A model generated the notes under the pieces. It ran no database searches. It had not been told where the DNA came from and was given only the letters and a program-made list of their open reading frames with translations. The position numbers and the translations under genes were made by a program. 64,000 nt of DNA from Macrocystis pyrifera. Lineage: Eukaryota > Sar > Phaeophyceae > Laminariales > Laminariaceae. How positions within the stretch are numbered: position 1 is the first letter of the stretch; each line of letters opens with the position of its first letter. The stretch is taken from contig JASSKH010000037.1 in the NCBI GenBank assembly GCA_031763025.1, positions 3,286,001 to 3,350,000 of the forward strand, read 5' to 3'. Shown in pieces: positions 1-57,190 of the stretch.

Positions 1-1080
1 TCTCGACCATCCTCGCGGAACCGTCTGCTCGGCACGATTTTTTTTTGCCGTACCAAACCTGAGACCACCTCGACGCGGTTTGGGGAAAACGAATTGCCCT
101 CTGCGTCCACGGTGTTGTCATACGACTCCTGTGACTGTTAGCGGTGGCAATGGACGTAAAACAAAACAGAAGTGTCGCCTGGTCGAGATCTGGGATTTGG
201 GAAGAAAAACTTTGCCACCAATAAATCCGTGCGATGATGCTATCTCAAAAATAAATAAAAAGCAGTGCGGGCGTCGACGTTGCGGCGCTGGGCTACGAGC
301 TGACAAAAAGCCAGCGTTGCTTTTTGCACGAAACGTGCTGCTGGACAGCGCACAACCAAGCCCAGAACGTAGAGCAGCAGCGTAGACACGGACGCGCGAG
401 CGTGAACGAGTCGCACGATTCTCTGGTGGCTCCTTGGTAGGCCCTACCTGGTAGCGTTTTAGGCATGCCTGAAAGAATGCTTGAACTATTGTTTCTGAAA
501 CAGGCGTGTCTGAACTACTATTTTCGTGCCCATCTTGCCTATCTTTTGCCAGGCACGCGTCAGACACGTCAGGCACGCTCACAGCCTTTTAAGGCATAAC
601 AAAATAACGCCGTTAGCGTGGAACTCCCAAAATCAGGGGAAAGGGGGATGCGTTTTTTTGTAGGGTCCCCGCAGCCCGTAGCAGCCACACAGCGCTCGTT
701 CGTGCTGACAGCCCCGTCCTTGAGCAACGTAGATTTCTTCATGGCGTCAGCCGTATGCTGCAACTTGTGTCTTCATAAAATACGTAGTGTAACTACGTAA
801 CGACGCTTTTTGCGACCTGCGTTATGACAACCCAGCCACGTACCCTCGCACTATCCTACTTGATGTTTTTTATTCTAGGAACTGCTGTATCTGCAGTTGT
901 TGTTTGCTGCAGATTATAAATACGTCTGGCGTACCAGTATGGCCTGTGTATGTCGGCCAGCACCGTGTGGCGCAGCAGACGCGGGTACTACAGGAAGGCC
1001 ACTTGATACCATACGATAATGTCACATTATGCAACACATGCACACCGAACCCTTCGAAATGCTGGCCATTTGGCTGGTTT
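1..1080. other. no recognisable gene
   Basis: Open frames exist on both strands here but none shows a recognisable motif or convincing coding character. The stretch contains scattered copies of a short AGGCACG-like word (around 455-580) that recurs near 1,540, and one TACCTGGTA palindrome at 445-453. Confidence 0.4.
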
Positions 1081-1251
1081 CGACGAGCAACCGCCGGGAA
1101 ATGTTCGATTTCGGTTTCGTTTTTTTTTTTTTTTCAGTTTTAAGAAAAAAACGCCCGAAACCGACCGACTTTTTCGGGAAAAACCGGAAAACCGACGGAG
1201 CCACTTTTCATTTTCGGTTCACAACCCTGTACGTACGTTTGTATGCATTAT

Positions 1252-1512
1252 TTCAGGCGTTTACCTCTTGAAACCGAACTACTTGATTTTAGTATAGGAT
1301 TTTTCCTTGCGTCGCTGAACAGGTTTCAGGCTTTTTTTCAGGCATTTTGCCACTTGAAACCAAACTGCTTGAAATTAGTCTAGGATTTGCGTTGGGACGC
1401 TGAGCAAGTTTCAGGCCTTTTTCAGGCATTTTGCCCACTCGCACAAGACTTCTTGAAAGTAGTATAGGGTTTGTCTTGGGGCGCCGAAAAGGTTTCAGGC
1501 ACGTCTCAAGGC
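1252..1512. repeat. tandem repeat, about 84-bp unit x3
   Basis: Three degenerate units each start with TTTCAGGC, carry a CTTGAAA-type block and a GTATAGGATTT-type block, and end near a GCGCTGA/GCGCCGA word. A homopolymer T run and a GAAACCG-rich stretch lie just upstream (1,100-1,215). This is noncoding satellite-like DNA; unit boundaries are approximate. Confidence 0.6.
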
Positions 1513-1559
1513 ATTTTTTACGGCAAATGCCTTAAATAGACAGGCACGTTTAAGGCAAA

Positions 1560-2170
1560 TTAAGGCACGTCAGGCATACGCCTATTTTTTTCCTGTTTCA
1601 AGTTTTTTTCGTGTGCGGCGTGCCTATGGCCGCATGCCTGAAAGCCAAGGCTAGGGCCTACTCCTTGGGACTGGCGGCCGGCAGCACGAGAATGCTGCCC
1701 CTCCTGTGAAACACGTCTTGTACAGATCAAGTCGCAGGCTATGTGGTCCTGGTTTACTGCTGTCAGAGGCACGTAAACAACGAGAACGTACCCACACACA
1801 ACATCGACAATCGGCTGTGTGTTGCTATATACTGCACTTCGCCGAGACCGGGATTTCGACGGCGCTGCCTGCACCTCCGTAGAAGCGCGCCCTATCTCTA
1901 GCCCACGCACGAGCAAGTTGTTGCTGCGCGTGTAGCAGGCTCGAGCCTTGCGGCCAAGGCTGCGTTCACCACGCGCCTGAAGTTCTGCATGGTGTTGCTG
2001 TATGTGCTCGTAAGTACACTACCACTCTGTCCGGAAAAGTAAGGAACCGTTTATTTTCATACTTATACTAGAACCGTCCCTAAATTTTCGGACAGAGCTG
2101 TACGGTAGAGTACTTTTAGTCGATCGTTTTCTCACGTGAGACAAACAGCAGTGATGCGTTCTCATCTGAA
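1560..2170. other. no recognisable feature
   Basis: Unique-looking sequence with no supported gene. A 118-codon minus-strand frame at 1,560-1,916 is open but has no recognisable domain and no splice context that I can support. Confidence 0.35.
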
Positions 2171-2175
2171 CGCTA

Positions 2176-2280
2176 TTACGGGGGTCCATAGTTAATAGGA
2201 CCTATGGTATACATAAAAACCTATATATTTACCTATTTTTACTGACAAAATTTGGTCCCGTTAACTATGGACCCCCGTAA
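2176..2280 (+). mobile_element. 105-bp MITE, copy 1
   Basis: Near-perfect inverted termini TTACGGGGGTCCATAG and CTATGGACCCCCGTAA enclose an AT-rich core (ATAAAAACC, TTTACCTATTTTTACT). The element is flanked by TA on both sides, as expected for TA-targeting (Tc1/mariner-like) nonautonomous elements. It has no coding capacity. The same element recurs ten more times in the window at the same length. Confidence 0.9.
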
Positions 2281-2289
2281 TAGGGGTAA

Positions 2290-3540
2290 CTCGCTTTCTG
2301 CTGCATCATGACCCGATCACAGATGGTCTTCGCTGCTGCGGTGATGGCGATCGCTCGGCGTTCGGCCGCTTTGATGTCTAGCTTCAGTAGCACCCTTTGC
2401 CCGATACGATGAGGACTGGGCGTCCTTTTTTTCATCTCGGGACATTTTTTTGTCGAGTTTCCCATCAACAGCAGTTGACTCATCAGAAGAGCTTCAACTT
2501 CTGGAGCATATTTCTTGTCGGCTACTTGTCGGATTCAAGCGCGGGTTGCATTGCTGTGTGCGCAAAGTCCTGGCGGAGGGGCTGACCGTATAGACTTTTT
2601 GAGCACCGTCCAGTAGTTCTTCCCTAGAGAGGTTTTCAAGAATGTTGGTGTTTTCTGATCAACTAGTACTGTACGTATACTGGTATGCATGATGTGGCAA
2701 TATCCGTAGCTTTGTGCTGCTGTAGCATGAAAATCCCAATGCACCCGCCAAATAATCCTGATTCTACATTATTGGTCATTAATTACGTAGGTACGTTCAC
2801 GCAAGGATCTACAAACTCCCCCAATCGAGATCCGGGCCATATCGACAAAAAGGACCGGACTTCGTTGAGAGTCGATTTAATATCACGACAGGAGGCTGTG
2901 AGCGTGGCGCTCGCGTTCAGTTGTAGCTTTTGTTTCTATCTTCTTGGCGGCGTGTGCAGGGCGAGCTTTGGGATCCAGCTCTAGTGATCGTATTGCCTGG
3001 TAGAACGCCTGAGATGGGACAAAGAGCTGTAGGATCAAAATGCGCCACTCGCTAGTCTGCCTACAGAAAACACGAACGTCACGTCCTGCGCTATTGGATC
3101 ACCCTCTGCAATTTTACCGGTGTGTGCATGCTGTGTTTTTCATGCATGAAGAGCAGAAGAGGCCAAGAACATATACGATAGTGAGACTCACCAACAAACA
3201 CGTACGTGCTCATGTACTTGGTACGTCAAGACGTATCTATCTGCTGCAACATTTGCCGGGAGTATTTCAAACATTTTTCATTGTCTTGTGTGCCTGTCAC
3301 TTTTGAACTGCTATAGACCAACTTTCGATTGTCCTGTGTACCCCGACCCTCATGTGTCGATCTGCTGTTTCAGTGCACGAAAAGAAGCATGGGCGCTAAT
3401 ATAAATAGCTCATACCATCTCAAGCGTTTACATAGATAGGCGTGGCTTTCGATCATGGACAACAATGGCCGCTGCAACAAATTCTGGGATGTAGAGTATG
3501 GTGGCGCAAGCATAGGAGAAGGTAGACATAGAAGGCAAAC
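2290..3540. other. no recognisable gene
   Basis: Small frames occur on both strands (for example 2,685-2,984 and 3,040-3,306) but I recognise no domain and no coherent exon structure. Nothing else is supported. Confidence 0.35.
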
Positions 3541-3554
3541 CTTGTGCATAGGTT

Positions 3555-3555
3555 C

Positions 3556-3586
<31 letters not shown>

Positions 3587-3655
3587 ATAATAATTATTAT
3601 TATTATTAAATTTATTAGAGTGTCTGCGCATAATATTTTTGTTTATCAAGGTTTT
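3555..3655. repeat. ATT microsatellite joined to a truncated fold-back arm
   Basis: An (ATT)n run passes into (ATA)n and back, then continues directly into AGAGTGTCTGCGCA and an AATATTTTTGTTTATC-type stretch. That block matches the inner end of the fold-back arms at 4,660-5,003, so this looks like a one-armed copy of that element whose AT-rich loop has become a microsatellite. Confidence 0.55.
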
Positions 3656-3825
3656 CCGTCGGGAAGGTAATCATAATGGAAAGCCTTTCGGCATGCGCAT
3701 AATCGTAGACGAAAAACAGCTAAATATTGGATTCTTATGTTTGAAAAAAAATACTTGAGGCAGCGGCAGCACTTTTTTTTGTACCAAACGAGCCGAACAC
3801 AAGAAGTCGTGCAAGCAGCAGCAGT

Positions 3826-3833
3826 ACCCACCT

Positions 3834-3877
<44 letters not shown>

Positions 3878-4450
3878 TGCGGGAGCAGTAAGCAGCAGCA
3901 AGCACTAACAGGCAGAAGTGCGATCTATCTTGCGCTCCTCGACACTCGCTGTGCAAGCAACGCCGCCACAACGAGAAGATCGCCCTCCTTCTTCGTCGTC
4001 CTCTCTGGCCGAAAAGGGGTCGAAGATCAGGGGCGTGGCGGCAAGGGTGCACGTGCTTGCAGCACCAGCAGCGCCTGCGACAGCTCTTGCAGCAGCGCTT
4101 TTGCTTGAGGCAGATCTCTCGCTTCCAGCAGCGCCTGCTCGCAGCAGCGCTTGCTTGAGGCAGCTCTCTCGCTTCCAGCAGCGCTTGCTCGCAGCAGCGC
4201 TTGCTTGCAGCAGACCTTGCTTGTGTGCAGCAGCGCTCGCTTGCAGCAGCGCTTTTGTTTGCAGCAGCGCCTGCTCACCGCAGTGCTTGCTTATTGCCGC
4301 AGTGTTTCCAGCAACAACAGCACTTACTTGCAGCAGCAGCAGCAGCACACTATATGCAGTAGTAGCAGCAGTAGTCGGTGACGTACAGCAGCAGCAGCAG
4401 CAGCACCTACCTAATAGTATCTGCTGCTGCAGCAGCAGCAGGCAGCAAAG
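3826..4450. repeat. CAG/CTG microsatellites and a CAGCGCTTGCTTG minisatellite
   Basis: A (CAG)n run lies at about 3,832-3,878. About 4,080-4,290 holds an imperfect tandem array built on GCAGCGCTTGCTTGCAGCA-type units, and short CAG runs follow at 4,330-4,445. Long poly-Ser, poly-Cys, poly-Gln and poly-Ala frames on both strands are by-products of the triplet repeat rather than evidence of a gene. Confidence 0.75.
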
Positions 4451-4659
4451 GCATGCAGCATCAGCGGCAGCAATTCTTCTCGCAAAACTCCGCCGGTAGC
4501 AGACACATGGTCCGAGGGTCCGAGGCCACTCTCGGGGCAAGCTTGGCCAATCCAAAGCGTCCGGAGAGTTTTCGGCCAACAGAATGCAGCGGTCGAATCT
4601 CATACCATACAAATATGGCTCTAGTATAATATGCTATCCAAAAATGCATAACTTCGTCA

Positions 4660-5003
4660 TTTTTATGCAAATTTGATTAGGATATTTGATTAGTCGTCGG
4701 TAACGGGGGAATAGATAAGCAAAATTCGTAATATTCTTTCTTTTGCGCAGACACTCTATTATTACTATTATTATTATATATACTATTAATATTATCATTA
4801 TTATTATGTTATTGTTGTTATTATTATTACCCTCGTATATTACCTCTTGACGTTATGAAGAGGCTTTTTTTCCTTGGAAAACCAAGAAAAAAGGGATTAT
4901 TATTAGAGTGTCTGCGCAAAAGAAAAATATTACGATGTTTGCTTATCTATTCCCCCGTTGCCGACGACTAATCAAATATCCTAATCAAATTTGCGTAAAC
5001 CTG
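4660..5003. mobile_element. fold-back element with AT-rich loop
   Basis: Two arms of about 100 bp are inverted copies of each other. The left arm (4,660-4,757) runs from GCAAATTTGATTAGGAT to GCGCAGACACTCTA. The right arm (4,905-5,003) runs from TAGAGTGTCTGCGC to ATCCTAATCAAATTTGC. The loop between them is mainly an ATT/ATA repeat. There is no coding capacity, and a truncated relative lies at 3,555-3,655. Confidence 0.75.
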
Positions 5004-5224
5004 CTTCCCCGCTTCTTTTATATGACAATCACAGCACTCTTTTGCATGCTGTTGTTGGATTCGCTTTGCGAAACGGTTTTTGCATGTATTGACCCGCATG
5101 AGACCCTGCGTTCCAAATTGTGAAATGCAAAGGTGTCAACATGTTGCAACATCATATCAATATCCCTTGTTCGGGTTATATAGTATCAGTGCGCAGCATG
5201 ATTATTTAAAATTGTCCTGTTGAC

Positions 5225-5875: not shown

Positions 5876-6620
5876 TTAGTGTTTAATAAAATAAGAAAAA
5901 TACGAATACAACCTGAAAAATCCAGTTTTCCCGCATAATTCCACTAAAAAATAGACGGAAAAAAACAAAACAGGTCCGAGTCACAACCAATCACAGCCTC
6001 TTTCTATACTGACGGGATGTGCTGGTTGAACGCAATCATCCAATTTGTTTCATGTGTCGAGTAATCGGGTATTTGGTGCAACCGTGAATGAATGTAGTCT
6101 ATATCAAAGTAATACAGAGTACAGTGGTGGCAGACTACCTCCCTAATTATGTTCTCTCGATTTTTTTGAACGGTTTCTCGAATAGACTGGACCTGATTTT
6201 GGCTATAAAACCCTGTATTTTTTCGTCATGATACTTCTTTCGCCGCCAAACGCTTCGCATGGGCTACGGGTCACATTTTAAGACTGCTGTGCAACACGTA
6301 CGTACGTATGGTAGAAAAGAAACAGCAGCAGTAGTAGCCGTGTGTATGACACGTTTTTCACGTATCGTAGTCGTGTGTAGTATATACGAGTACCAGGTAC
6401 AATACATGTGGTATGCGGGTATATATACACATTATGTGTAGCGTAGTCGTGATTTATCAAAATTAGAACAACTGCGGTGAGATCGAGAATCTCGTCGTAA
6501 GTCATATTTGTAAGCTGTGTGTGCTGCTGCGGTCCCCGTGACTACGCAGCTGTGGGTTATGGCCGATAAGTTGCGGCCCAGTACTATTGAAGTAGTATTG
6601 AAGGCTTGGTATCAAAGAGG
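5876..6620. other. no recognisable gene
   Basis: AT-rich sequence with one TACCAGGTA palindrome (6,391-6,399) and no supported gene. Confidence 0.35.
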
Positions 6621-6624
6621 GGGG

Positions 6625-7133
6625 GGGGAGGAGGTGTACTCGATGTCATGCATGGCCGCAGTCGTATAACCATAGACCCTCGCACCCCTACAAGGGACGG
6701 AGCACGTTGGCCTTTCACCGATCTGGCAGAAATTGCCTGCGCCAAGCGCGAAGCGCCGTGAGGTGTTCGGCGAGTCGCATGAAGGGTGAGCTACGTCGCA
6801 CTAAGAACCGCTTGTGAGGCGGACTTGCATCTGGATGACAATTTTCAAGGAGTCAGTGGGGTTACTATGTCACTGCCTCGCGGGTGCTATACCATAAACG
6901 CTACCTGGTACGTGATGTGATCATTCGCCTCTTGCACGGGGTAAAGGTTCTCCACCTCGCACAAGTGGTCTGCTGTAACTCGATCGTCAGCTGTGACCGA
7001 CCGCCAAAAAAACAAAATATACCAAAAATGGTACCCGTGTTGTCTAGCTCACGTAGTGAGCGGCATGTCATACAGTGTCGTTGCCAACCGACGCCAACCC
7101 AACCCATATATCAAACAGGGGGGGGGGGGGGGT
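6625..7133 (+). repeat. G-run-bounded dispersed repeat, copy 1
   Basis: This block of about 510 bp begins next to a G run and ends in GCCAACCCAACCCATAT followed by another G run. Landmarks shared with other copies are GTGTACTCGAT, CATAGACCCTCGCA, CCAAGCGCGAAGCGCC, GAGTCGCATGAAGGGTGAGC and GTCGTTGCCAACCGACG. Full relatives are at 40,330-40,890 (same strand) and 38,704-39,246 (opposite strand); partial ones are at 21,020-21,190 and 39,840-39,985. No protein is recognisable. Confidence 0.75.
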
Positions 7134-7314: not shown

Positions 7315-7865
7315 GTCAATTTACCCGGGTATTACCCATACCCGGAACTTCTGTGAGTTCTAGTTCTGTACAACATCCACACCCGTACCAGGAACTTCTG
7401 TGAGTTATGTGAGACATTCGTACCCATACCCGAAACTTCTGTAAGCTCTGTACGCCCGTGCCACGATACCCAGGGTACGGGTACAACATGTTTATACCTG
7501 CCCAATGCTTCCATGAGTTACGTACGCCCATACCGCAATACCCGGAACTTCTGTGTGTCCTGTAAGCCCTTCATACTCGTGCCCGGAACTTCTGTGAGTT
7601 CCGTATGACAATTCATACCGCAATACCCGGAACCTCTGTGAGGTCTGCACGCCCGTGGTATCCGCACAGAGTACCCGGGCTACGGGTACAATATTACAAC
7701 ATTGTATACCTGCCTGGAACTTCTGCGTGTTCTGTACGCGCGTGCCACAATACCCTGAACTTCTGTGAGCTCTGTGAGACCTCAGTACCGGTACCCGGAA
7801 CTTTTGTAGGTTCTGTAATACCTCCATACCCGTACCCGGAACCCACAAACCCCACAGAATATAAC
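7315..7865. repeat. minisatellite built on CCCGGAACTTCTGTGAG
   Basis: At least ten degenerate copies of CCCGGAACTTCTGTGAG followed by TTCTGTACGCCCGT-like spacers form an irregular tandem array with variable unit length. Frames on both strands stay open because the repeat lacks stops, so the predicted peptides are artefacts. Confidence 0.75.
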
Positions 7866-8089
7866 CTTGGAAATTTTTGCCCCACGTGGTACGAGTCATT
7901 TTTGCACGCGCACCAGTATGAATGCTCATGTATTTACGTTCGAGTCGAACACGTGTTGATTGTCGACGTCGTGTTCCTGCTGTACGACATGAGCGATATT
8001 AAACGTACAATGTTTCATAAAACAAAAAAAAACTCCAGGAACAAAGGACACGCGTATTGGATGACATGATACAACCGTACCAGGTATCA

Positions 8090-10470: not shown

Positions 10471-10479
10471 ACAGGTCAT

Positions 10480-11570
10480 AAACATATGAGTACATTCTCG
10501 TATTCCTGTCTACGTGCGATTTCATTTTGTTTTCCAACAAAGGTGTTGTTTTCAGTGGTGTGTACAGCAGTACGGCGACCTGAAAGCGCGTGGTTAAAAA
10601 GTCGTACCGCACTCGTGGTCAAACTCGCACAACAAAGGAGTCTCGCGTACTGTACTGGTACGTGGGAGTAGAAGGTACGAGAGTACCGTATCCCTCCGTG
10701 TAGTCTCCCTATGTATTGTGCGTCGTGTGGTTCTGAGGGTGTGGCGTTGTTAGCGTGGCTGCAGTTGCCCCGGTATAGCTACACACGGGCACGGCAGCAT
10801 ATGTGCGTGCCTACCACCGCATGGTACCTGGTACCTTTCGAAATTCAGGCTGCGGGGACCGATATTCGCTGTCCTCGAGACGTATTGAGCCATTCAATTT
10901 AAGCCTCAGCTGAGTTGTCACGTAAATTTTACAAAGAGTAACCAAAGAAAAGAAGAGGAAAAGGTGTGCCCTGTTTCATACGTACCGGGATTGCTCTCTT
11001 AGAACCTTACCAGGTACAGCTTCACCCTCACACTCACTCACCCTCGTACCCCCGACGCTTGAACGCTTGAACGCTTTTACCGACTACTTACAGCCGTGCA
11101 ACCTACTCCTTCGATGAAGTAAAACAGCCACAGCAGTCAGCAGTCAGTCAGTACCCATCTAGCCAGCACAGCAGCGGTAGGACAAGTCTGGGCCGAAGGT
11201 CGTGTGTGTCGTCTTCAGATTTCCCGCGTTAATCCGTTATTTGTACCCAACGGTACCCAGCACACCTAGCACACTCCGTGGTATACGCGTACGATACTCG
11301 TACGAAATAATGATTGGTCCTGGAGATGTACCATAGGTACTAGCTGGTATGAAATACCATGGGTACGAAAAGTTATTGTTTCACGGGCGCAAAGTACGAT
11401 GGGACAGATAAATACCTGTACCAATGGCATCAAAATACAAAATGACAAAGTTACGCAGGGACAACGAACAAGGCAAGTCCCGCGTAGGTGCGTTTTTTCA
11501 GTACCGATTGCTGGCATTGGCTCACTCTTGTCGCGTATCACTTCTCTCTTCTCCAAGTTTCTGTTATCTT
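10480..11570. other. no recognisable gene
   Basis: No supported gene. Two TACC(A/T)GGTA palindromes lie here (10,825-10,833 and 11,008-11,016), along with short CAGTCAG-type repeats around 11,130-11,150. Confidence 0.35.
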
Positions 11571-12206: not shown

Positions 12207-12319
12207 TTACGGGGGGTCCATAGTTAATACCTGGTAGGACCTATGGTATACATAAAAACCTGTATATTTACCTATTTTTACTAACAAAATTTGGTCCCAT
12301 TAACTATGGACCCCCGTAA
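12207..12319 (+). mobile_element. 105-bp MITE, copy 3, carrying an 8-bp length excess
   Basis: Standard family termini and core. It is 113 bp rather than 105 because of one extra G in the terminal run and seven extra bases near the left end. There the usual TTAATAGGACC reads TTAATACCTGGTAGGACC, so a plain TA has become TACCTGGTA. The right flank is TA; the left flank is not. Confidence 0.9.
12228..12236. other. TACCTGGTA, candidate excision footprint inside a MITE
   Basis: In the sister copies at 2,176, 26,704 and 49,732 this position is a plain TA within TTAAYAGGACC or TTAATAGGACC. Here it is TA-CCTGG-TA. The shape (target TA duplicated around a short palindrome with an A/T centre) resembles footprints left by Tc1/mariner excision. 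Exact copies of TACC(A/T)GGTA also lie at 445, 6391, 6902, 8078, 10825, 11008, 12357, 15005, 24993, 29487, 29837, 34972, 47380 and 56674. Confidence 0.6.
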
Positions 12320-12660
12320 TAGTAGGAGCAGCATGCGTTCTATATAATACTATTAATACCTGGTACACTACTACTACGACTACTAGCTATACTACTAGGT
12401 ACAAACGATCATGCAATACACAGACAACCTCATGGTAAACAGAGAGGTCCAATAACTACGCGGTAAGGCATGACTACTATACTGTAGCTATACACCATCA
12501 GTAATACATAGATCCAGTGCAGGTAGAAGCAGCATGAATAAATACTACACTAGATACTACTGCTGCTCCTGTATTAAAAACTTCCATACAGCGGCAACGT
12601 AGCACGCAAACGGTTCGGGGCATGACTATTACTATGTTACTCTCAATGTACACCACCACT
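12320..12660. other. no recognisable gene
   Basis: Spacer rich in ACTACTA-type words, with a TACCTGGTA palindrome at 12,357-12,365. No gene is supported. Confidence 0.4.
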
Positions 12661-14699: not shown

Positions 14700-15760
14700 T
14701 TGAAAACCAAAACTGGACAGCTACAGTAAAAGCGGGCAATTTCAAAATTGTTGAGATTTTCAATGCAGGAAAGATCAGCGGAGACAGTTCTTCGTTGTTG
14801 AAAGCGCACACAGCTCGTCGTATCACACGTGTCCTGGATCCTAGAATATCAGCCGGGCAGTCGGTCAGTGTGGGCTGTGCCCGGTGCCCCACGGGGCAGT
14901 ACAGTGAGACGGGAGGCAGCGTGGGCCTGGCTCTGGCTTTTGCCCTTGGCGATTACCTGCTGCTGAGAGCGTGCGACTGAACAACTAGCTAGGTATAACA
15001 CCAATACCTGGTACCAATATTTCTCCTAGGTAGACGGACCGTTGTGGTCACGAACGTGCTCAGTGTTATGTGTACACCACCCGTCAAAGGGCTTGGTGCA
15101 ACGGATACGACGGCCGACAGATGTGCATTTGCTGTTGCTGCGGTATATGTCTGCTGCTGCTGCTGCTGCCGCCGCTACCGCTGCTTCTTCTGCTGGGGTT
15201 GAAGAACATGTGTACAGCAGAGGGAGCTTCAAAACGTCTTCGAGGGTGGCGGGCTATTTACTTATGAAAACAAGCACACAAAATGTGGGGTTTCCCATGT
15301 TACCTGCTCGTCTCGGCGAGGCGGAAAGCAATCCCTTGTCTTTTAGAGCCAGCTCAGCGACGTTCACTGCCCCTAGCACCGCAACGGTGCTTGGCCGGGA
15401 TCCAGACATGGGTCGTAATGCACCCACGATCCCCTTGCTTGCCCCGCAGCTGAAAGTGCTAGAAAGAACCCTCGGCCGCAGGCGAGCAGCATGTCAAGAA
15501 AAAAAAGTGCATCGTATAGTAGGGGTGCAGCTACTGTAATATTTCTAGAGGCTCCTCACTCTATACTACTGTTAGTATTAGTACTATTAATGTTAGTAAG
15601 TCACCCAAAATAGCGCTTGACCTGACGAGCAATCCCACGACCTGCGATGGTTACAACGCAAAACATAGTAAAAACAAACGATATTGGGCACCTAACTCTT
15701 CAGTTCAGAAGCCCCATCAGTCACTGATGTTTCGGCCAAAATGTGGGACAGTTAGTGGGC
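14700..15760. other. no recognisable gene
   Basis: A moderately GC-rich stretch at 14,760-15,530 has open frames in several phases (for example 15,042-15,539) but no recognisable protein. A TACCTGGTA palindrome is at 15,005-15,013. Confidence 0.35.
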
Positions 15761-21837: not shown

Positions 21838-21900
21838 GTACGTCAAAAACATGTTTATGTTTATGCATGTTTTGTTGTTGCTACCAAGATGTGCCCCCCG

Positions 21901-21968
<68 letters not shown>
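21901..21968 (+). repeat. 68-bp poly-C tract
   Basis: An uninterrupted C run in intron 1 of the TPR-like gene, preceded by six more C and one G. Translated poly-Pro or poly-Gly frames are artefacts. Confidence 0.85.
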
Positions 21969-24940: not shown

Positions 24941-26050
24941 TAGGCGGGGGCTGTATAGAACCATTTGCGTTCAACAATTAAAACACACCCGGTACCTGGT
25001 ATCTAACTGTTCTTGTTTCCCTTGTTTCGTTTTCTTGGGGGTTTTCCAAGACATGGAAACCGATTTATAAGGTGTTAGCCGGAGGCTGCGCAGCTCGGTG
25101 TGTTTCAAGGTTAAATGCGGGGCGACTTCCACTTGGGCAGGGTGACAACAGTAGTCATATATGGCACCAGGTCTACCGTCGGCCTTTCGCTGTTCGGCGG
25201 AATCAGTGGCGACGCCCGGAGTGTCTAGTCGTAGCTCGGCGGGAGCTGTAGTCCGGGAGCAGGTCACGGCCGCGGGTGGTGTTGGTATTGATTGGTGTTA
25301 GTGGCGCATCTCTTTCCGCTACCTCGCCTCAACACACCGGTATAGATACTTCAAGGAGATGAGAACGAGAAGAGCCTTCTGCTTTTTTTTTCCCCTCACA
25401 TATTCCAAGCATGAATAGTTTGTCACCATAAACGTGGATGCAGTTCTAACGGGATCAACGCCTTTGAGCTGTATCGCCGTTTTGCGGGATGCCGGTATAC
25501 TGTACCAGCTATGGGCTTGGAATAATACTTATATCGCGTTTTCCGGGTGGTAATTGGGGTATGGCCACTTTAGATTTGTACCACAGTGTTTTTTTTGCCG
25601 CAATCTACGTGCGCTTTGGCTTACAGTAGATCGCCTTTACGTTGATAAAAAGGTCTGTTTTGCTTCTTTTCTATGAGCTCGGTTTCCTTGCCGACGGTAG
25701 AGGGTATGCGTGCGTGTGCACTTCACATCACGTCCGTTCTACTCGGCTTCCCTGCCTGCCGGTGAAGCGCCTTCCGTCTTCCCGTCTTCCTTTTCTTTCT
25801 TGCCTTCCTTTCGTAAATGCAGCAGCAGCTGAATCTTATCTGCCTTCTTCTGGTTCACGCGCGAGGCACATGCTCGGTGTACGCCCATTCTAACCCCCCC
25901 CCAACCTATTGTATAACTCATCACGATGGCAATAAATTTTTGTCTACTGTTCATAGGGGTCACATTTAACAAGCTTCAACGTCGGTTACTCATGAAACTT
26001 CAACAATTCCCCAGGTGTACCTAGGGCATCTAGGAGCATAATTGAAAACC
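24941..26050. other. downstream region, no recognisable gene
   Basis: The first few hundred bases are presumably 3' UTR of the TPR-like gene. A TACCTGGTA palindrome is at 24,993-25,001. No other gene is supported. Confidence 0.4.
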
Positions 26051-26395: not shown

Positions 26396-26703
26396 ACTGT
26401 TCGTGAACATAGGGATCGTTTGGTGTTGATACGAAAGTTAAAACGTACCTTGTCACGGGTGTACCCCCCCCCCCCCCCCGGTTCTTCCCTTCACTCATAT
26501 CGCGCGTACAGGGTCCAGTTTTCCCACTGCTCGTCGGCCTTGTACGTGGACAATGCCTTCCATGGGTGGTACAATATTTTCTGAATCTACTCGCATGGGG
26601 AGCTCGATACTGCACCCAAAACATGACTTCGAATAAGTTTGTTCGGGCAACCCGACCAACATTTCCAAGCTCTAGTCACGAAACAAATACACTACATACG
26701 CTA

Positions 26704-26808
26704 TTACGGGGGTCCATAGTTAACAGGACCTATGGCATACATAAAAACCAATATATTTAGGTATTTTTACTAACAAAATTTGGTCCCGTTAACTATGGAC
26801 CCCCGTAA
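26704..26808 (+). mobile_element. 105-bp MITE, copy 7
   Basis: Nearly perfect inverted termini (TTACGGGGGTCCATAG / CTATGGACCCCCGTAA) and TA flanks on both sides. It appears to be one of the youngest copies. Confidence 0.92.
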
Positions 26809-26814
26809 TAGTAA

Positions 26815-28899: not shown

Positions 28900-29880
28900 A
28901 AGAAGGTGACGGACGCATTGCATGATAGGGGCAACACGTCTTGGGCAAAACTGTCACTGGGACTGATGGGGTTTCTCAACTCCTAACACTACCCAACAAT
29001 TGATAGCATTTGCTTTTGCAACATTTTTCGATATATACCTACAGTAGGCCATAGGGTTGCTCATCGCGGTAAGCGCACACACTGTTTCGTATGGCCGCTT
29101 GGGGGTGATACATATATGCAGTGAAGCTCTTCAAGCAATGAGGCGCCAGTCAGGAGAACTGCATGTACTTCCCACCGCAGCGTTTGCCAGTCAGGGGTGG
29201 TTCAGTACCTTTTTTTTCTAAGCTCTTAGCTTAAGGATCTCTTTTCCATCCACGATTGTGCCTCGCACAACAATCGACTACGAGAAGCATTCCAAGCTAC
29301 TGTAAGCCCAAAGCCCAATTCATGAGCTTCTATTACAGCAGTAGTAATCTACCGAATATCGTCGTAGCTTGCGCATCGGATCCAACAGTACAATGGTTGA
29401 GGAGACCCCCTGTCAGTCAGGAATGACTGGGCTCAAAAGTGCAGCCCAAATTCCGGCCGCAGTACAGCTCGTCCAATGCCAAGATATACCTGGTAGTCCG
29501 CAAGAGGGTAGTAATAAAAGTACAGATAGTAGACGTAAGTCAGAAACACTTTATCACGATCTAATGAGTTAAATTGATAGTAAATTGGGCGTATCGGTTT
29601 CATTTTTTTGGTCCACATGGTTTTCTTAATTCGTACCAGGCACCTGGTATCAAAATATCATGCATAGGGTTTTTCAAGAGTGATCGACGGTGAAGCTCAT
29701 GCTAAACATTGTCTGGTGGCAAACCTAAAACATGGTATATCGAAATGACGAGTTGGTGACCTGGTGAGAGTCGTGCTATATTCAACCGTTGAGATCATTG
29801 TATTTGTACGATACGCGCAATCGGAGGGCTAATTGCTACCAGGTATGGTACTGCTTTGAATGAGGCTGAAAGCCCGATAA
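28900..29880. other. no recognisable gene
   Basis: No supported gene. Contains TACCTGGTA at 29,487, the double palindrome at 29,634-29,649 and TACCAGGTA at 29,837. Confidence 0.4.
29634..29649. other. double palindrome TACCAGGCACCTGGTA
   Basis: Two halves of the TACC(A/T)GG word sit back to back, separated only by CA, with TA at both outer ends. This could be two overlapping footprints or a remnant of an element reduced to its termini. It could also be chance. Confidence 0.4.
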
Positions 29881-33343: not shown

Positions 33344-33489
<146 letters not shown>

Positions 33490-33599
33490 TGCCCCCCCCC
33501 CCGCCCGCACCTGCTTTCGTACGTCAGTGCGTGCATGCATGCTGTCTCACACACAATAAAATCGCTTCACCTCTCCGCGGACATCACGCTGCCACAACA

Positions 33600-34879: not shown

Positions 34880-35097
34880 ATGGTCGATGATGGTATGCCC
34901 CTTCCACAGCATCAATCCACCATACACCTCGGCAGCCTCGGTGACCTATGTACCAGGCGCATGCTGTCAAATACCAGGTATCGTCTAGCGTTTATTAGAT
35001 TTCAACGTCCCGCGCTGTTGGCATCTGCAGTAGAATATTCCTTGGAAGAAGGCAAGGTATTGACGCTCGACCCAACGTCTGGGCGTCTGTCTGGGTA
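34880..35097 (+). CDS. candidate exon, LTLD-type motif
   Basis: The plus-strand frame ends in ALLASAVEYSLEEGKVLTLD and PTSGRLSG, just before GTAAAG, a plausible donor. The xLTLDxTxSxxSG motif resembles the segment of REJ-like repeats that precedes a Gly-rich linker. It contains a TACCAGGTA palindrome at 34,972. Confidence 0.3.
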
Positions 35098-36451: not shown

Positions 36452-36810
36452 GACGCGTTCTGCGGCGATAGAGGTAGCACATTTCCGCTATTATGGGGGT
36501 CCATGGTTAATAGGACCTATGGTTTACATAAAAACATATATATTTACCTATTTTCACTAACAATATTTGGTCCTATTAACTATGAACCCCCGTAACAATA
36601 TATTTCCTGAATGACTGGGTTCCTTGACCCAAACTCGTCGGAGTGCCAGTCTTGTTTCGAAGATTGGCGTTCTTGTATACTTGGGCCATGGGATTATTCA
36701 TCGGGATGCAATTTGTTTTTTTTCTGAAGCCAGTTTTTGGGTGAGGTATGGAGCTCCTCAACTAAGGAGCCTCGGAAAATTTAGGGTGAACTTCCATCGT
36801 AGAACGCCTC
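36452..36810 (+). repeat. segmental duplication, copy 2 (with MITE)
   Basis: Second copy of 35,206-35,420, interrupted by the MITE at 36,491-36,595 plus about 33 further bases not present in copy 1. Confidence 0.8.
36491..36595 (+). mobile_element. 105-bp MITE, copy 9
   Basis: Termini TTATGGGGGTCCATGG and CTATGAACCCCCGTAA, with TA on the left flank. It is inserted in one copy of a local segmental duplication, which gives an approximate empty site for comparison. Confidence 0.88.
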
Positions 36811-41989: not shown

Positions 41990-42598
41990 AGCTTTTCTAT
42001 GTGGATCACTGTATGTTCGATTCGCTCTCATCACGGTTCTGGCAATCGCGTTTGCTGTCGTGAGGCTTCGACTCTTCTCCGCAAGATCCGTTCGCCTTAC
42101 ACGTACTTTTAATAGGAAGATATATCGTATTCAGTTCGATTCTGTGGCTACGGCGTACTTCTCTTGCTGTTCGACCTACAGTAGGCGTGGTGCCGCATGT
42201 AATTTAAGGCTACACTCTATGAAGGAGGCGCGCGAGCACGGAGCGTGAGTTTTTTTTTATATTCGATATTCAAGCCGACAGCGTGAAGGATAGGCCTCTG
42301 TTTTTTTGTCGACTTCCAATGGAGAGTAAGTACTTTCTCTTGATAGTACAACCTACGCAGGACTTGTACTACGGTAGGGGGAGACATGATGCCGTTCGTT
42401 TCACTACCGCGGTTACACCACTCGGGCGAGTGGCTCTGCACCTCAGTCGTATTCGGACATGCACTTTTTCCGTGCCACAAAAGTGACAAACGATCCCATG
42501 GCGGTGCATATCGAGGAATAAAAAAAAAATGAAAGCTCAAGACCGCTGGGAAATGAGGTATTCACTGGGTCGAGTGGGTATGAGCGGTTAAACACCTA

Positions 42599-42703
42599 TT
42601 ACGGAGGTCCATAGTTTATAGGACCTATGGTGTACATAAAAAACTATATATTTACCTATTTTTACTAACAAAATTTGGTCCCGTTAACTATGGATCCCCG
42701 TAA
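42599..42703 (+). mobile_element. 105-bp MITE, copy 10
   Basis: Termini TTACGGAGGTCCATAG and CTATGGATCCCCGTAA, TA flanks on both sides. Confidence 0.9.
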
Positions 42704-42884
42704 TAGGACCTAAACGTGACCTCCCTACCTTAACTATCTACCCCTCACCGGGGCTGGACATTCCACTTTCGAGTCCCCTCCGAGATAACCGTATGCGTTT
42801 TTGTTTTCGGTATTACAGTAGATGACCAAACTTCCTCCACACCCCATACACGGGCAGGTTGCACGAGCACCTACCGGATGACAG

Positions 42885-46899: not shown

Positions 46900-47439
46900 C
46901 CTGAAGCAGTGATGGATGCTGATACTGAACTGAACCAGATTTACCGAAAATCCAGATTGGGTACGGGAAACTGAAACAGGAAAAAAACGGGTTTGTTATC
47001 GGTATATTACCGATACCGGCATCCGGCATGTCGGTATTTGTCACCCCTCTGCAAGAGTGCCCCCATCGGGCAAATGAAAACACCTGAAGTATGGCCTAAA
47101 CGCGAAACACAACTCACGACGCGTCGGGAATGTTACTAATACCGAAATGTCGGCACCGCAAGAGGGTATTGTTTCGGTACTTGTCAGCCTGGTATACAGC
47201 AAGACGTAAACTCGGTGTCAGCCTCGTGGTGCGGGCAGCGCACCGCTGGCCGGAGACCGCGATGCGGCACCCGCACTACGAACTGCAGCGGAGGTGCGCC
47301 TACCCGCAGAGGTTGCCAGGGCCCCTGGAGGGCCGCCGGAACCCCCAGGAGGAATCCGTGTTTCGTTAACAAGTATTTGTACCAGGTATGCGTCAATACA
47401 CCAAAAATGTGCATATTACCACCCGCTCGTTTTATCCTC

Positions 47440-49730: not shown

Positions 49731-49731
49731 A

Positions 49732-52038: not shown

Positions 52039-52218
52039 AACGGTTCATCGCGAGGGGTAGACCATGACACTACAGCGTCGTCATCGATGGGCGGGAAACA
52101 CATGTCGCCAGGTACTACACCGGCGTGGCCGGCGGTGGAAAGAGAAGTCCCAAGACCAAACGAACCAGGGAGGAAATCTGACCCAGCGAGAAGGCCGACA
52201 AAAGCCGGCACAGCAGTC

Positions 52219-52838
52219 TTAATCCCATACACACTCACACGCGTCGCAAACAAAGTTGACCCAGATTGTTTGCGAGGGAAAGTCAAAACCAAGGGGGGGC
52301 AGGTGCACACCTTTCACATCAATCATAATAGGCATGTGCGCGGAGAGTTCATGGAGCGAAAGATTGAAGTTCAATCCCTCAACCGCTGACACGTTCGGCA
52401 CAAGCACTCTAACATCTTCTCGCACACCGGCAGCATTCCATTGATGAAAGTAAAAATTAAACGTCCACGCGCGGCAACACGAAGCGTTTGGCCACTACCA
52501 ACCTGTACATATCTCTGATTAATAGGAATGTCGTTGCCGCGGAGAGTGTCAAACATATGCGCGTCACCATTGATGTCGTTACCGCTAGCACCGGAATCCG
52601 TAAGCACCTCCTCGCTTCCATGCGGTTGGCATAAGCCCAAGTTGTTGGCCTGTGCTAAAAACGCATTTCCAACTCCGTCATTTTCCACGTCACCCTCATT
52701 CCCGTCATTCAAACCATTATCAACACCAGGCACACCAAACTCGCCTACTGGCACAAAGTGCATGACGAGGGCGTGCATTCCAGACGGCGCGGGGTCCGAT
52801 TCAGGAGAAGAGTACGCTGCAGAAGGGGGCGTGGGGCT
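52219..52838 (-). pseudogene. Copia protease region
   Basis: Downstream of gag and in the same frame, separated by a single TGA (52,839-52,841). It reads MHFVPVGEFGVPGVDNG, then a retroviral-type aspartic protease signature, EEVLTDSGASGNDI, with RYVQVGSGQTLRVAARGRLI. Near 52,425 the frame shifts to REDVRVLVPNVSAVEGLNFN, the usual continuation toward the pre-integrase domain. Another shift occurs before 52,038. Confidence 0.8.
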
Positions 52839-53990
52839 TCAGGTGTAGTGGACCATTTCCTGCTGGTGGGGCTGTTGGGGCTGATGTTGAAGCTGGGGCG
52901 GGGGCAGCTGCTGCTGCTGTTGCTGCTGCGCTCCGACGGCGGTGGCGGCGATATTTGCATCGCTCACCATGGCTGGGTCGGGGGCGTAGGGCCCTGCGCC
53001 TCCGTTACCCCAGGACCCGCCGGTGCTGCCGTACTCGTACTGATGCTGCTGGTAGTAGGTGTTTTCGTGCTCGTCGCACAGGAGCGGCGGGGGGGAAACT
53101 TCTTGCGCGATGCATGCGCGGGCGTCCTGCGTGCGTGGCTGGTTTTGACTAGGGTTGTGACCATCATAAGCCAACCACCTCCCCCCAGCCCCGCCGGTCG
53201 CCCATCTTCCCCCGCCCCCGTCTCCACGGTTTCCGCGAAATGCACGTCCACCGGGGCCTCCACGGCCACCGGGACCACGACGGCCGCCGCCGCGACCTGA
53301 ATGGCCACGACCACGACCCTGCTGGGGTGCATGCGCGTAGCTCCAAGCAGCTGATCCTACAGCGTTTGACGGTCGCTGTCCTCCGCGCGACAGGCTGACG
53401 TCGAACCCAAGGTTGTGCTGACGTTGTCGGTAGGCCTCGTGGTGCTGGCGCTCGAACTCGCTGTTGGCCCACTCTCGCTGGCGCTGCTGCTCGTGACACT
53501 CGCTGTCGTCGTGGTTGCAATGTCCGTGTTGACGACAATATTTGCCTCCTGCACCAGCATCTGTGGGATGGCGCTGCCGCGATCTCGATCCTCCGCCGCC
53601 CCTGGCGCCGTGCCCTCGCCCAGGTCCGGCAGCCATGAATGCCAAGCCCCCGTACCCGATCTCCTTCTCCCTTCTCTTCATCTCCCGGCGGTCGTGAGCG
53701 GACTGCACCACCTCGCGCATTTGTGCAAACGATAAAGAAGGAGTGGCAGACAAAATGCTGGTCTCAACCTCACAGAGAGAGGAAAGACCAGCAGCAATAT
53801 GATGATTAGCTTCAACATCGTCCAGGGGGGTCTCGTACGATTCACGTTTGGTCCGTATTACAGACGCCCTTGCCAGGTACTCTCTGGGCATTTCTCCTTC
53901 TGCTTGCTTTACGTTACTCCAATGTCTTCGGAGTTTTACTTTTTCAAACCCTGCACGCGTTTCGTAGTACTTCCTAAAACAAGCCCACCC
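52839..53990 (-). CDS. Copia gag (N-terminally truncated)
   Basis: A continuous minus-strand frame from just after an in-frame TAA (53,991-53,993) through CFRKYYETRAGFEKVKLRRH, EGEMPREYLARASVIRTKR and VVQSAHDRREMKRREKE (the conserved gag core) to a zinc-knuckle-like KYCRQHGHCNHDDSEC (C-x2-H-x2-C-x-H-x4-C). A Gly/Arg-rich region and a Gln/His-rich tail follow, ending at TGA. The first part of gag is absent or out of frame. Gag forms the particle and binds RNA through the knuckle. It is the best-preserved part of this element. Confidence 0.8.
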   Translation of the reverse strand, partial: GWACFRKYYETRAGFEKVKLRRHWSNVKQAEGEMPREYLARASVIRTKRESYETPLDDVEANHHIAAGLSSLCEVETSILSATPSLSFAQMREVVQSAHDRREMKRREKEIGYGGLAFMAAGPGRGHGARGGGGSRSRQRHPTDAGAGGKYCRQHGHCNHDDSECHEQQRQREWANSEFERQHHEAYRQRQHNLGFDVSLSRGGQRPSNAVGSAAWSYAHAPQQGRGRGHSGRGGGRRGPGGRGGPGGRAFRGNRGDGGGGRWATGGAGGRWLAYDGHNPSQNQPRTQDARACIAQEVSPPPLLCDEHENTYYQQHQYEYGSTGGSWGNGGAGPYAPDPAMVSDANIAATAVGAQQQQQQQLPPPQLQHQPQQPHQQEMVHYT

Positions 53991-53999
53991 TTACTAAGG

Positions 54000-54570
54000 G
54001 CTGCCAGCAGACAAAATCATCCTCATTATAGGGACGTAGTGTAATAGGTAAACCATGAATGGTGCTGTCGGCCCGGTTGACGGGGCTCTCGGAATAAAGG
54101 CACGCGGCCAAGACCGGCCGGTTCGTTCGTGTATATTATTGTGCACCTTGAGGGGAAGATCAAGAGCAAGATAGAGAGGGCACGGCGCGTGCTCACACCA
54201 ACACGAAAAGGGGTATATCCAGAACTCAAAGCCAATTCCCACACGTATTCTCCAATGCAATGTCCCGCCATATCTCCGTACCAAACCCAGATCTCCGTAC
54301 CGAATCTCCGAATAACTATTTCTGCTGTCACAAGATATATATATCTGTAAAACTCAAGAATATCGCGATATTTGACATTTAGAGCCAAATTATGTGCCTC
54401 ACGAGTTTTATACGGACGTCGGGGGTATAGCGATATTTTCGCCATACGTGGTCCGCAACACACAAATATATGCTTGGGGTATTTTTACTCCACAAAAAGC
54501 ATATATTTGATTTCTCTTTTTTGTAGGTAGAGGAGAATTTGGGAGACAAAATTCGAAACAGCCTGTCCCC
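54000..54570. other. no recognisable feature, possible 5' flank of Copia
   Basis: The expected 5' LTR and leader position for the minus-strand Copia element. I found no direct-repeat partner on the far side and no clear primer-binding site. Confidence 0.35.
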
Positions 54571-54579
54571 TCTACTCGG

Positions 54580-54996
54580 TCATCCGATCATTACCCTGCC
54601 AGCAAGCACCACAACAGCAGCAGCAGCAGTGGTGGCCGCCACGACTTGGTTGAATGAGTACGGCAGACGAGTGCTACCTTGGTCGGGGAGAGGCGGATGC
54701 ACGGGATGCCCCGGTTCAGCGGCACCGGCACAGCACCCAGTGCTCTGGCTGGGCGTCTTTCTGCCGGAGTTGCCCCAAAACCATGTCCCTAACACCGCAC
54801 ACCCCACCTCATCCGGGAACAAGCGGGTAGCGCCAACCCAACCTTTAGTTTTTGGCGGACACGTCTCAGCACAAGCACGAGACGCGCCATCGTCTATGCC
54901 AAGAGCCAAATCCATGGTGTACGCGGGCGCTGTAGCCTGCCGAGCTACGTAGAGAAGCAGCTGCAGCAGCAGCAGCAGCGACGTCCGCCAGCCCAT
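54580..54996 (-). CDS. candidate secreted Cys-containing protein
   Basis: Starts at an ATG giving MGWRTSLLLLLQLLLYVARQ, a strong signal peptide, then TAPAYTMDLALGIDDGASRA, KGWVGATRLFPDEVGCAVLG and TPSQSTGCCAGAAEPGHPVH. It ends with a hydrophobic VVAATTAAAAVVVLAG tail that could be a membrane or GPI-anchor signal, or intron read-through after YSFNQ. The length is 138 residues. An ATG eight codons upstream is possible but would put charged residues ahead of the signal. A shorter plus-strand frame overlaps but is less protein-like. Unknown family. Confidence 0.45.
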   Translation of the reverse strand: MGWRTSLLLLLQLLLYVARQATAPAYTMDLALGIDDGASRACAETCPPKTKGWVGATRLFPDEVGCAVLGTWFWGNSGRKTPSQSTGCCAGAAEPGHPVHPPLPDQGSTRLPYSFNQVVAATTAAAAVVVLAGRVMIG

Positions 54997-55019
54997 GCGA
55001 TGTTCTACGTGTTTGTGCA

Positions 55020-56400
55020 CTTGCCGCCTATTTTTATTTCACCCATGTTTTATCTCACGTTGTTCTGGCGAGAAACCCGATATTGAGTTTTATATCAAGG
55101 GATTTGCGTGTACGAAAATCACGATATTGAATTCGGCGCAAAGAGTCGAAATATCACCCTCTGTTGAGTTCTATATGTATATGTATACGTATATTTGTCA
55201 ATTTTTCGTACTTTTGCCAATTTTTCTCTTCGCACGAGCACTTTTAGGCAAAACAGTAAGTACACGGACACGGGAAGCCCTGCCGGACACATTGGTCTAG
55301 GTCTCGGCGCGATCCGTGCACTCTGAAGCGCGTGGCAGGCGCTTAATTTTTTTTTTCCGGCGGGAGTGGATAAGACGATTTCCCTGGTTTCTGTAAAGAG
55401 GCCTTATTTTGTACGTACGTATCGGTACATTGTCATGCTCTCTGTTTCCTCCCCCCGGCTCTCATGAGCTGTGAGCACACAGCTCAGGCATATACCAGGA
55501 ACACAACAGACAACATGCACAGATCCCATCGTTCCAACGCTGCCGCCCACACGCCGTGCGTGTTCGACACGCCCGTATGCGCAGTGTTGCTGTGGTTGGT
55601 TGTGTCTGTCGGAGCCTGTCGTCCTCATTCCATGGTCTGCCATATACTTTTTTATCTGTGTGTAGCCAGGATGACGTATAAAAATATCCCATCGTACATA
55701 TTTTTTTTTTGGGTTGTTGCACGGAGCACGGACCACCGCCCAGAGGACAATACCCACAGCAGTGCACAGAGCGTTCTTACCTCCAGCTTCCTACAGCTCC
55801 ACAACCAACCCTGCTGCCCAGCAGCAGCAGTGAGCACACCTTGCGCGTATGATGGATGATCGTACTGCGGCTCATTCGTACAGCAGCGTTCGTAATATAC
55901 TTACAGCAGTACAGCAGTATAGTTCTGATTGCAGTGTGTCCTACATTGCTGACCGATAGATCCTAGAGCCGGCTGAAAGGGGATCAGTACACGTACGTTC
56001 CTCGCGTTGCATTTTACAGCAGTACTGCTGAATATGCAGTCGTACCTGTACAAGCTACTCTACTGCTGTAGGAGATCGTGCAAAATGTTTTCGATTTGCG
56101 TAAAAAACACGGCATGCCAGTTGTACGAGCACTGTTCTAGCGTATACGTTTAAACTGCGCTGGATAACATTTTCGTTTCCGAGGTTCGACTCGCACCATC
56201 CACGTTTTTTTTTCTTAATTTCCTTTCTACTATTTTTGTACCAGAACTACCACAGAGTACTACAGTAATAATAATACATTCGTCCACACCTTGCTTTTCT
56301 GAACGTATAATATAGTAGAGTACATGTTACTTGTGTGTTTTAGCCCAAATTAAAGAGTTCGGGTGCGCTTGCGTGTGGCGTGCGTTCATACCTCAACATT
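55020..56400. other. no recognisable gene
   Basis: Several overlapping frames at 55,404-55,859 on both strands, none recognisable. The rest is AT-rich spacer with short CAG runs. Confidence 0.35.
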
Positions 56401-56439
56401 TCACAGCTACTCCGAATACTTGGGAGTAAAGCAAAGTAT

Positions 56440-57190
56440 GTTCGAGAAAATACTGCTATTACCGTAGGTACTTCGTACACTCGCAGTATTTCGGGTTTTT
56501 TGTACTCGAGATACTGCGAGTACTCGCAGTATTTTGAGGTTCTGTAGATACTACTGCGTATACTTTCTTCGGGCTCGCACTAATGCGGGGTTCGCTACTG
56601 CTGCTGGCATGGATACCGCCTGTTGTGCTTCAAGTATCCCGGGGTTCTGTACCGCGGGTACTCCAGTAAGTACTACCAGGTAGTCTATAGCAGTATTTCG
56701 TCCATTGGTAGTGTTCGTATTGCTGCATCTTCTGCGAGACTCAGTACTCGCAGTAATGAAATACCCTCAATATGCCCAGTACACTTCGAGTATGAAGTAC
56801 ACTTCAACCGTTTGTGCACCGTGTTGACAAGTCTCAGGCCCAGCGTTCGGCACGAAACACACCCAGATAGTCCCACACGAGTGGGTTGGAGCAAACTACT
56901 TTCGCTGGAGACAACTTGAGCACTCAAAGCAGTCTGCCAGTATTTCGATATAACATTATGCATAACTGCGAATGCTCTCAGTATCTCGAGGTTCTGTACT
57001 GCGCATATATTGCCTTTTTACCCCAAGCATTTATGTCGTGTTTCGATACCACCACTGCGGGTACATACTTTAAGCAACCTGTATTCCCGGGGTTCGGTAC
57101 TGCTCACACTCTCATTACTCTCAGTATGTGGGCCTTCTCAGTACTCGCAGTAGTTTTGCCGCCAGTACTCCATTACTCTCAGTACTCGGA
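56440..57190. repeat. degenerate minisatellite built on CAGTACTCGCAGTA
   Basis: Repeated TACTCGCAGTATT, (C/G)GAGGTTCTGTACTGCG and CTCTCAGTA words occur irregularly over 750 bp, more ordered at the ends than in the middle. A TACCAGGTA is at 56,674. Open frames here are by-products. Confidence 0.55.

Follow-up and report, generated by a model that had tools for sequence, protein, structure and literature searches.

A 64,000-nucleotide stretch of the genome of the giant kelp Macrocystis pyrifera (C127:3286001-3350000, hereafter the window) contains 15 exact copies of the 9-bp palindrome TACC(A/T)GGTA, written TACCWGGTA below, very probably scars left by the excision of a Tc1/mariner-like cut-and-paste transposon. 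The genome-wide signal is real: throughout the assembly (537,376,219 bp, 223 contigs) the word is found at 121,279 places and the reversed control pattern at 2,421 (about 50x), which leaves an excess of about 119,000 exact copies over background, or one per 4.5 kb on average. The kind of system is a known one; its core, its abundance and the missing parent element are unusual. The published giant kelp assembly has a matching size of 537 Mb in 223 contigs, with 50.37% GC (PMC10498591).

Abundance of the TACCWGGTA word

All 15 copies listed in a preliminary description of the window were found at their positions, and 100 dinucleotide-preserving shuffles gave a mean of 0.42 (maximum 2; none of the 100 reaching 15). 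When all 512 classes of odd 9-bp palindromes are ranked, TACCWGGTA comes first in the window, where the 256 W-centred classes average 0.58 copies and the 256 S-centred ones 0.47. It is also the top class in the 264 kb formed by the window and the surrounding 200 kb (42 copies vs a class mean of 2.2), and 54 copies, for an expectation of 1.73, were counted in a 304-kb sample that comprises the window, the 200 kb around it and 40 kb from elsewhere on the same contig. The comparison of the whole assembly with its control did not give the count near expectation that the preliminary description had named as an argument against a scar. The same description had pointed to the co-occurrence of A- and T-centred forms. 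Both do occur, but TACCAGGTA and TACCTGGTA are reverse complements, i.e. one double-stranded word, so that their joint presence reflects strand symmetry and cannot be counted separately in favour of an ambiguous centre.

The spacing between the two halves of the word is strict. In a scan of the 304-kb sample for TACC and GGTA only spacing 1 is strongly enriched (61, about 4.8 expected), spacings 0 and 2-12 giving 3 to 15 occurrences each. Words that differ from TACCWGGTA by one substitution are also in excess (100 vs 45.8 expected), the highest being transitions in the TAs; by type of change the excess is 5.0-fold for A>G, 3.9-fold for T>C and 2.2- to 3.2-fold for C>G, C>T and A>T. This is what decaying scars would show and suggests that the true number of scars is probably above the exact count.

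Bare TA in repeat copies related to filled sites

Empty counterparts of the filled sites were sought among relatives, that is, paralogous repeat copies within this one genome. A relative spanning the site is present for 10 of the 54 sites of the 304-kb sample. Five of them are clean bare-TA cases (window positions 12228, 6902 and 12357, as well as C127:1027549 and C127:3239935), the last of which was excluded from the strict count because its relatives differ in an adjoining T-run. Site 15005 and its partner at -24474 (about 39 kb upstream), both counted within the ten, are both filled, the word having presumably been gained before duplication of that repeat; site 56674, also one of the ten, lies in a 14-bp gain, and at C127:3431815 and C127:1034321 the relatives align too poorly for the state to be read. 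Under a strict rule, which required 12 ungapped bases per side with 18 or more of the 24 identical and an exact match to the bare TA, the 54 sites gave 4 bare and 2 filled-only cases, vs 3 bare and 114 filled-only cases for 982 control TA-N5-TA words (Fisher p=5.6e-5). Of the three bare control cases, TACGAGGTA differs from the scar by a single mismatch, and TAGGACCTA seems to correspond to the second half of site 12228. A looser test favoured the bare form in 6 of 9 sites vs 54 of 283 controls (p=0.003).

The empty alleles with a single TA that the preliminary description had proposed to look for are thus present, on paralogous copies, at 4 of the 6 decidable sites vs 3 of 117 controls. Its opposite case, in which the 9-mer would be ancestral and conserved, did not materialize, with the caveat that 15005 and its partner are both filled. 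A TA target and a bare-TA empty allele, as expected of a Tc1/mariner footprint, are therefore both seen on paralogous copies.

One TA in the D3 MITE

A replicated target site is provided by D3, a miniature inverted-repeat transposable element (MITE) of 114 bp with inverted ends TATTACGGGGGTCC, of which the window holds 11 copies (e.g. 2170-2283, 26698-26811, 42593-42706). One of them carries the word, at 12228; at the same place the other ten have TA (8/10) or CA (2/10). Genome-wide, the exact D3 junction with a bare TA occurs 10,688 times (5,333 + 5,355) and the junction with TACCWGGTA at this TA 68 times (37 + 31), the reversed control being absent. The filled rate at the D3 TA is thus 68/10,756 or 0.63%, close to the genome mean of about 0.41% per TA, obtained as (121,279 - 2,421) divided by ~28.8 million TAs (a number scaled from the density of 16,300 TAs per 304,000 bases, i.e. 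32,600 half-flanks, in the 304-kb sample). This speaks for hits that are spread over TAs in general.

The D3 junction counts concern exact junctions and TA-bounded gains of 1-14 nt only, deletions being invisible to them. There are 124 such gains (68 on the forward strand, 56 on the reverse), and the exact word accounts for 68 of the 124, the match with the number of forward-strand gains being a coincidence. Among the 100 gains listed, the core measures 1 nt in 6, 2 nt in 9, 3 nt in 2, 4 nt in 12, 5 nt in 56 (51 of them the exact word), 6 nt in 7 and 9-14 nt in 8. Half of the 14 non-exact cores listed are scar-like variants (CCCTGG, CCATGG, CC, CCAG, TGG, CCAGC and CCAAG); the remaining seven are G, G, A, AA, TACTG and two internal duplications.

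These counts bear on the possibility that the word belongs to a high-copy repeat or MITE subfamily which carries it internally, its number then reflecting copying and not separate events. A second word of like shape, TAGGWCCTA (10 copies in the window), is over-represented for exactly this ordinary cause, since 8 of its 10 copies lie within D3 copies, 7 of them at one common place in D3. On C1, word pairs also recur at equal distances, five times at about 400 bp and two times at about 1,200 bp, and on C3 four words reappear about 120.2 kb further along, from which the genome-wide count probably contains some duplicates. On the other hand, the word occurs in both centre forms at the same MITE TA (A-centred in 25 copies and T-centred in 43 when read along the MITE), and 15005 with its partner at -24474 is the single pair among the 54 sample sites that has the word and related flanks in common, although a few others have nearby MITE pieces in common. 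Copying as the source of the count is largely refuted in the sample by this scarcity of related pairs, and we regard it as very unlikely.

Flanking sequence and position relative to open reading frames

The preliminary description had considered the flanks beyond the outer TA as not conserved. This does not hold wholly, as a weak target preference is seen in the 108 half-flanks of the 54 sites, at positions +1, +6 and +7. With both sides pooled, A is scarce directly outside the TA (3/108 vs 0.20 in the background), and there is an enrichment of T at +6 (48/108 vs 0.25) and of A at +7 (49/108 vs 0.27). Asymmetry of the centre base relative to the flank bases was not significant (p=0.12). An origin from piggyBac does not fit, A standing outside the TA on just 3 of 108 sides where a TTAA target would have it, and a 7-bp gain being left vs scar-free excision. 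Nested scars were observed as one TACCTGGTACCTGGTA in the 304-kb sample and, on C1, as at least three pairs of listed places separated by 7 bp.

Open reading frames (ORFs) of at least 100 aa contain 22 of the 54 sites vs 60.3% of RTAY sites (p=0.005), and those of at least 150 aa contain 10 of 54 vs 28% (p=0.13). Scarcity in long ORFs, together with the palindromic form and the many exact copies, is what a conserved regulatory or protein-binding palindrome might show as well. Such a palindrome would be expected to be conserved in relatives, whereas 4 of 6 sites have a bare TA there and 10,688 of 10,756 MITE copies lack the word; the gain in single repeat copies with bare-TA relatives largely refutes this explanation. 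One-substitution neighbours in excess, as in decaying sequence, and a number of about 120,000 copies argue against it too, and we hold it to be most improbable.

Proposed mechanism and length of the overhang

The Tc1/mariner-type footprint logic put forward in the preliminary description, TA-CC(A/T)GG-TA, is supported by the genome-wide excess and the bare-TA relatives, what is seen being the gain of the scar at TA. In this scheme an element would insert at TA, duplicating it, with a preference for R-TA-Y suggested by the flanks, and its transposase would excise it with a stagger that leaves a few end nucleotides on each flank. The two 3' overhangs would then pair and the gaps be filled and sealed, converting TA into TA-CC-W-GG-TA, a 7-bp gain that is itself observed. 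The resulting scars would afterwards decay through ordinary substitution. The TA target, the gain of CCWGG plus TA, the flank preference and the graded minor products all fit a cut-and-paste excision in which some nucleotides of the element ends stay in place.

The overhang may be of 3 nt rather than 5. In the 3-nt variant the ends would begin CCA, and two terminal A's would face each other as the mispaired centre; CCATGG would be CCA joined to TGG, as from a filled-in 3-nt overhang, and CCWGG would represent the same overhangs overlapping by their last base. A 5-nt CCWGG overhang, which is also possible, would likewise yield the major product. The predicted products are CCWGG, CCATGG and CCA/TGG for 3 nt, and the fill-in product CCAGGCCTGG for 5 nt. 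The minor products TACCATGGTA and TATGGTA suggest CCA ends with a 3-nt overhang, and a 3-nt CCA/TGG stagger accounts for them no less well than a 5-nt end. The 304-kb sample speaks against the 3-nt variant: TATGGTA/TACCATA is hardly elevated there (48 vs about 37) and TACCATGGTA is found 0 times, which indicates that the products favouring 3 nt are rare. Compared with the overhang of 2-3 nt expected of such footprints (PMC3878927), the major core here has 5 nt; CCATGG and TGG, which would fit 3 nt, are seen once each among the cores listed.

A different route would be the direct micro-insertion of 7 bp at TA without any large element, for instance through an insertion by a transposase that is abortive or limited to the ends, or through a templated repair habit. 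The high uniformity of the main product and the lack of a visible parent in the 264 kb searched would fit this. The graded minor products at one TA, in turn, resemble end-joining variants and the target preference resembles that of a transposase, and to our knowledge no mechanism of direct 7-bp micro-insertion at TA has been described, which also counts against it. We consider this route unlikely.

Search for a parent element and its transposase

Elements with CCAGG/CCTGG ends, proposed in the preliminary description as possible parents of the scar, were searched for in 264 kb and none was found. When TACCWGG and CCWGGTA were paired at distances of up to 8 kb with matching inner 16 nt, one weak pair (12/16) was obtained in 264 kb and was judged to be due to chance. 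The 90 one-sided TACCWGG matches in the same 264 kb, read by eye, showed no common extension distinguishable from internal repeats. A scan of the 304 kb for TA-flanked inverted repeats yielded 144 pairs; many of the first 60 proved to be internal parts of D3 or of one large palindrome. From many matching end pairs, a 6.4-kb inverted repeat was noted at C127 ~3387095-3393488 (L018-L019, centre near window coordinate 104290), which is either a real palindrome or an assembly fold-back.

As for transposases, the Pfam DDE_1 profile has 39 matches in the genome (best 1.6e-27). Nine of the ten loci compared form one family (L030-L038), about 97-99.7% identical over most of their length in pairwise alignments. 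Most copies align to both ends of the 3.5 kb compared, and the element ends lie outside. L030, the one copy tested, bears HTH_Tnp_Tc5, a Tc5-type DNA-binding domain, and we take its combination with DDE_1 to be the mark of pogo/Tigger-type Tc1/mariner elements. The DDE_3 profile has no match in this genome, its controls matching in 3 of 14 genomes; Transposase_1 has none here either, but no control matched anywhere, so that this result is uninformative. A literature search with the literal words TACCTGGTA and TACCAGGTA returned no algal title among the matches listed.

Several observations weigh against excision of a Tc1/mariner-type element as the source of the word. No parent with TA-CCWGG ends is present in 264 kb (no separate search was made for ends that start with CCA), and nothing ties any of the DDE_1 transposases to the scar. 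The filled form is favoured in 3 of 9 sites by the looser test and in 2 of 6 by the strict one, and the change at 56674 is a 14-bp gain and not a clean 7-bp one. Moreover, the count of 121,279 appears to take in the duplicated blocks on C1 and C3. The 68 filled D3 copies are not proven to be independent: those close to the beginning of C122 and C123 are possibly duplicates, and the A:T split of 25:43 among the 68 departs from even (p=0.038), so that some of them may belong to a copied subfamily.

Coordinates of the copies and companion words

Table 1. Copies of the word and selected D3 copies in the window (window coordinates; relatives compared within 304 kb)
Feature	Coordinates	Strand	Remark
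Putative scar TACCTGGTA	445..453	.	exact match; no spanning relative in 304 kb
Putative scar TACCAGGTA	6391..6399	.	exact match; no spanning relative in 304 kb
Putative scar TACCTGGTA	6902..6910	.	two relatives pass the strict bare-TA test
Putative scar TACCAGGTA	8078..8086	.	exact match; no spanning relative in 304 kb
Putative scar TACCTGGTA	10825..10833	.	exact match; no spanning relative in 304 kb
Putative scar TACCAGGTA	11008..11016	.	exact match; no spanning relative in 304 kb
Putative scar TACCTGGTA in D3 MITE copy	12228..12236	.	other window copies here: TA 8/10, CA 2/10
Putative scar TACCTGGTA	12357..12365	.	bare TA in relative near C127:3417908 (L021)
TACCTGGTA	15005..15013	.	word also in relative about 39 kb upstream; repeat copies 86% identical
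Putative scar TACCTGGTA	24993..25001	.	exact match; no spanning relative in 304 kb
Putative scar TACCTGGTA	29487..29495	.	exact match; no spanning relative in 304 kb
Putative scar TACCAGGTA	29837..29845	.	exact match; no spanning relative in 304 kb
Putative scar TACCAGGTA	34972..34980	.	exact match; no spanning relative in 304 kb
Putative scar TACCAGGTA	47380..47388	.	exact match; no spanning relative in 304 kb
TACCAGGTA in complex gain	56674..56682	.	relative without 14 bp here, not clean 7 bp
D3 MITE copy carrying the putative scar	12209..12322	+	comparison family, 11 window copies
D3 MITE copy, bare TA at 2196	2170..2283	+	
D3 MITE copy, bare TA at 36511	36485..36598	+	

Other over-represented words of related form were analyzed in the same way. 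TACWGTA, the Sleeping Beauty-type word, occurs 26 times in the window and 182,385 times genome-wide vs 70,689 for its reversed control (2.6-fold), and the 304-kb sample contains TACAGCAGTA 32 times (0.45 expected) and TACGAGTA 41 times (6.25 expected, 6.6-fold). A first reading of these three words as further scars was not carried by the strict bare-TA test, which gave 1 bare and 1 filled-only case for 93 TACWGTA sites (control 8 + 89 of 929), 0 and 1 for the 41 TACGAGTA sites (control 59 + 162 of 1,784), and 1 and 2 for the 32 TACAGCAGTA sites (control 3 + 124 of 1,097). The looser test favours TACWGTA (10/18 vs 26/246) and TACAGCAGTA (4/5 vs 69/331) and does not favour TACGAGTA (0/3 vs 78/491). 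As regards TACWGTA as a scar, 3-nt cores are nearly absent at the D3 TA (2 of the 100 gains listed). The word TACTCGCAGTA, found 9 times in 304 kb (0.1 expected) and having a spanning relative for 6 of the 9, is perhaps repeat-internal. The window also contains poly-C tracts on the + strand at 33345-33506 (162 bp) and 21894-21968 (75 bp), with a 96-97% match, and, at 7333-7858, repeats whose unit measures about 41 bp (...TACCCGGAACTTCTGTGAG...).

Significance and comparison with known systems

Studies of excision scars usually deal with small numbers of them; in this genome there seem to be about 119,000, with empty alleles supplied by high-copy repeats. For a foundation species this would mean a large number of hidden gains of 7 bp throughout its genome. 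Such a collection would allow the history of transposition to be counted without the transposon, its activity to be dated by scar decay, and end-joining to be read at one replicated site. D3 offers a ready set of replicated targets for this, one junction word being present more than 10,000 times genome-wide, and its TA might serve as a natural excision-repair assay for the range of joining products formed in a brown alga. It is conceivable, if somewhat doubtful, that a ghost transposon made on the order of 100,000 jumps within a single lineage and left a uniform CCWGG scar at intervals of about 4.5 kb, its own copies being rare or gone. If found, the parent would show whether scars can reveal an element far more readily than its copies do.

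Sleeping Beauty and Frog Prince, Tc1/mariner elements with the footprint TA-C(A/T)G-TA, are among the nearest counterparts; Table 1 of PMC3878927 lists their footprint as C(A/T)GTA. They have in common with the kelp word a TA target, a short palindromic core, an A/T centre and the gain of one TA. Sleeping Beauty differs in its core, which is C(A/T)G and not the CCWGG of the kelp word, and at the D3 TA 3-nt cores make up 2 of the 100 gains listed, one of which reads TGG. In the mariner element Mos1 one end begins CCAGG and the stagger is 3 nt; the minor kelp products TATGGTA and TACCATGGTA would fit such ends. Minos, another Tc1/mariner element, leaves a footprint with the 4-nt core CGAG, a TA-bounded scar made of end nucleotides; TACGAGTA is 6.6-fold over-represented here, but a bare-TA relative is seen in 0 of 3 testable among its 41 sites. 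In the brown alga Ectocarpus 17 Mariner-Tc1 families with nearly 12,000 copies, mostly non-autonomous, are reported in the main text of PMC12477816, where the words footprint and excision do not appear. Finally, in rice, where excisions of DNA transposons were read genome-wide, 8 of 94 left just two target copies and the rest deletions or fillers, according to PMC4423477; in kelp, one product accounts, at a single TA, for 68 of 124 gains in the 1-14 nt range, a count blind to deletions.

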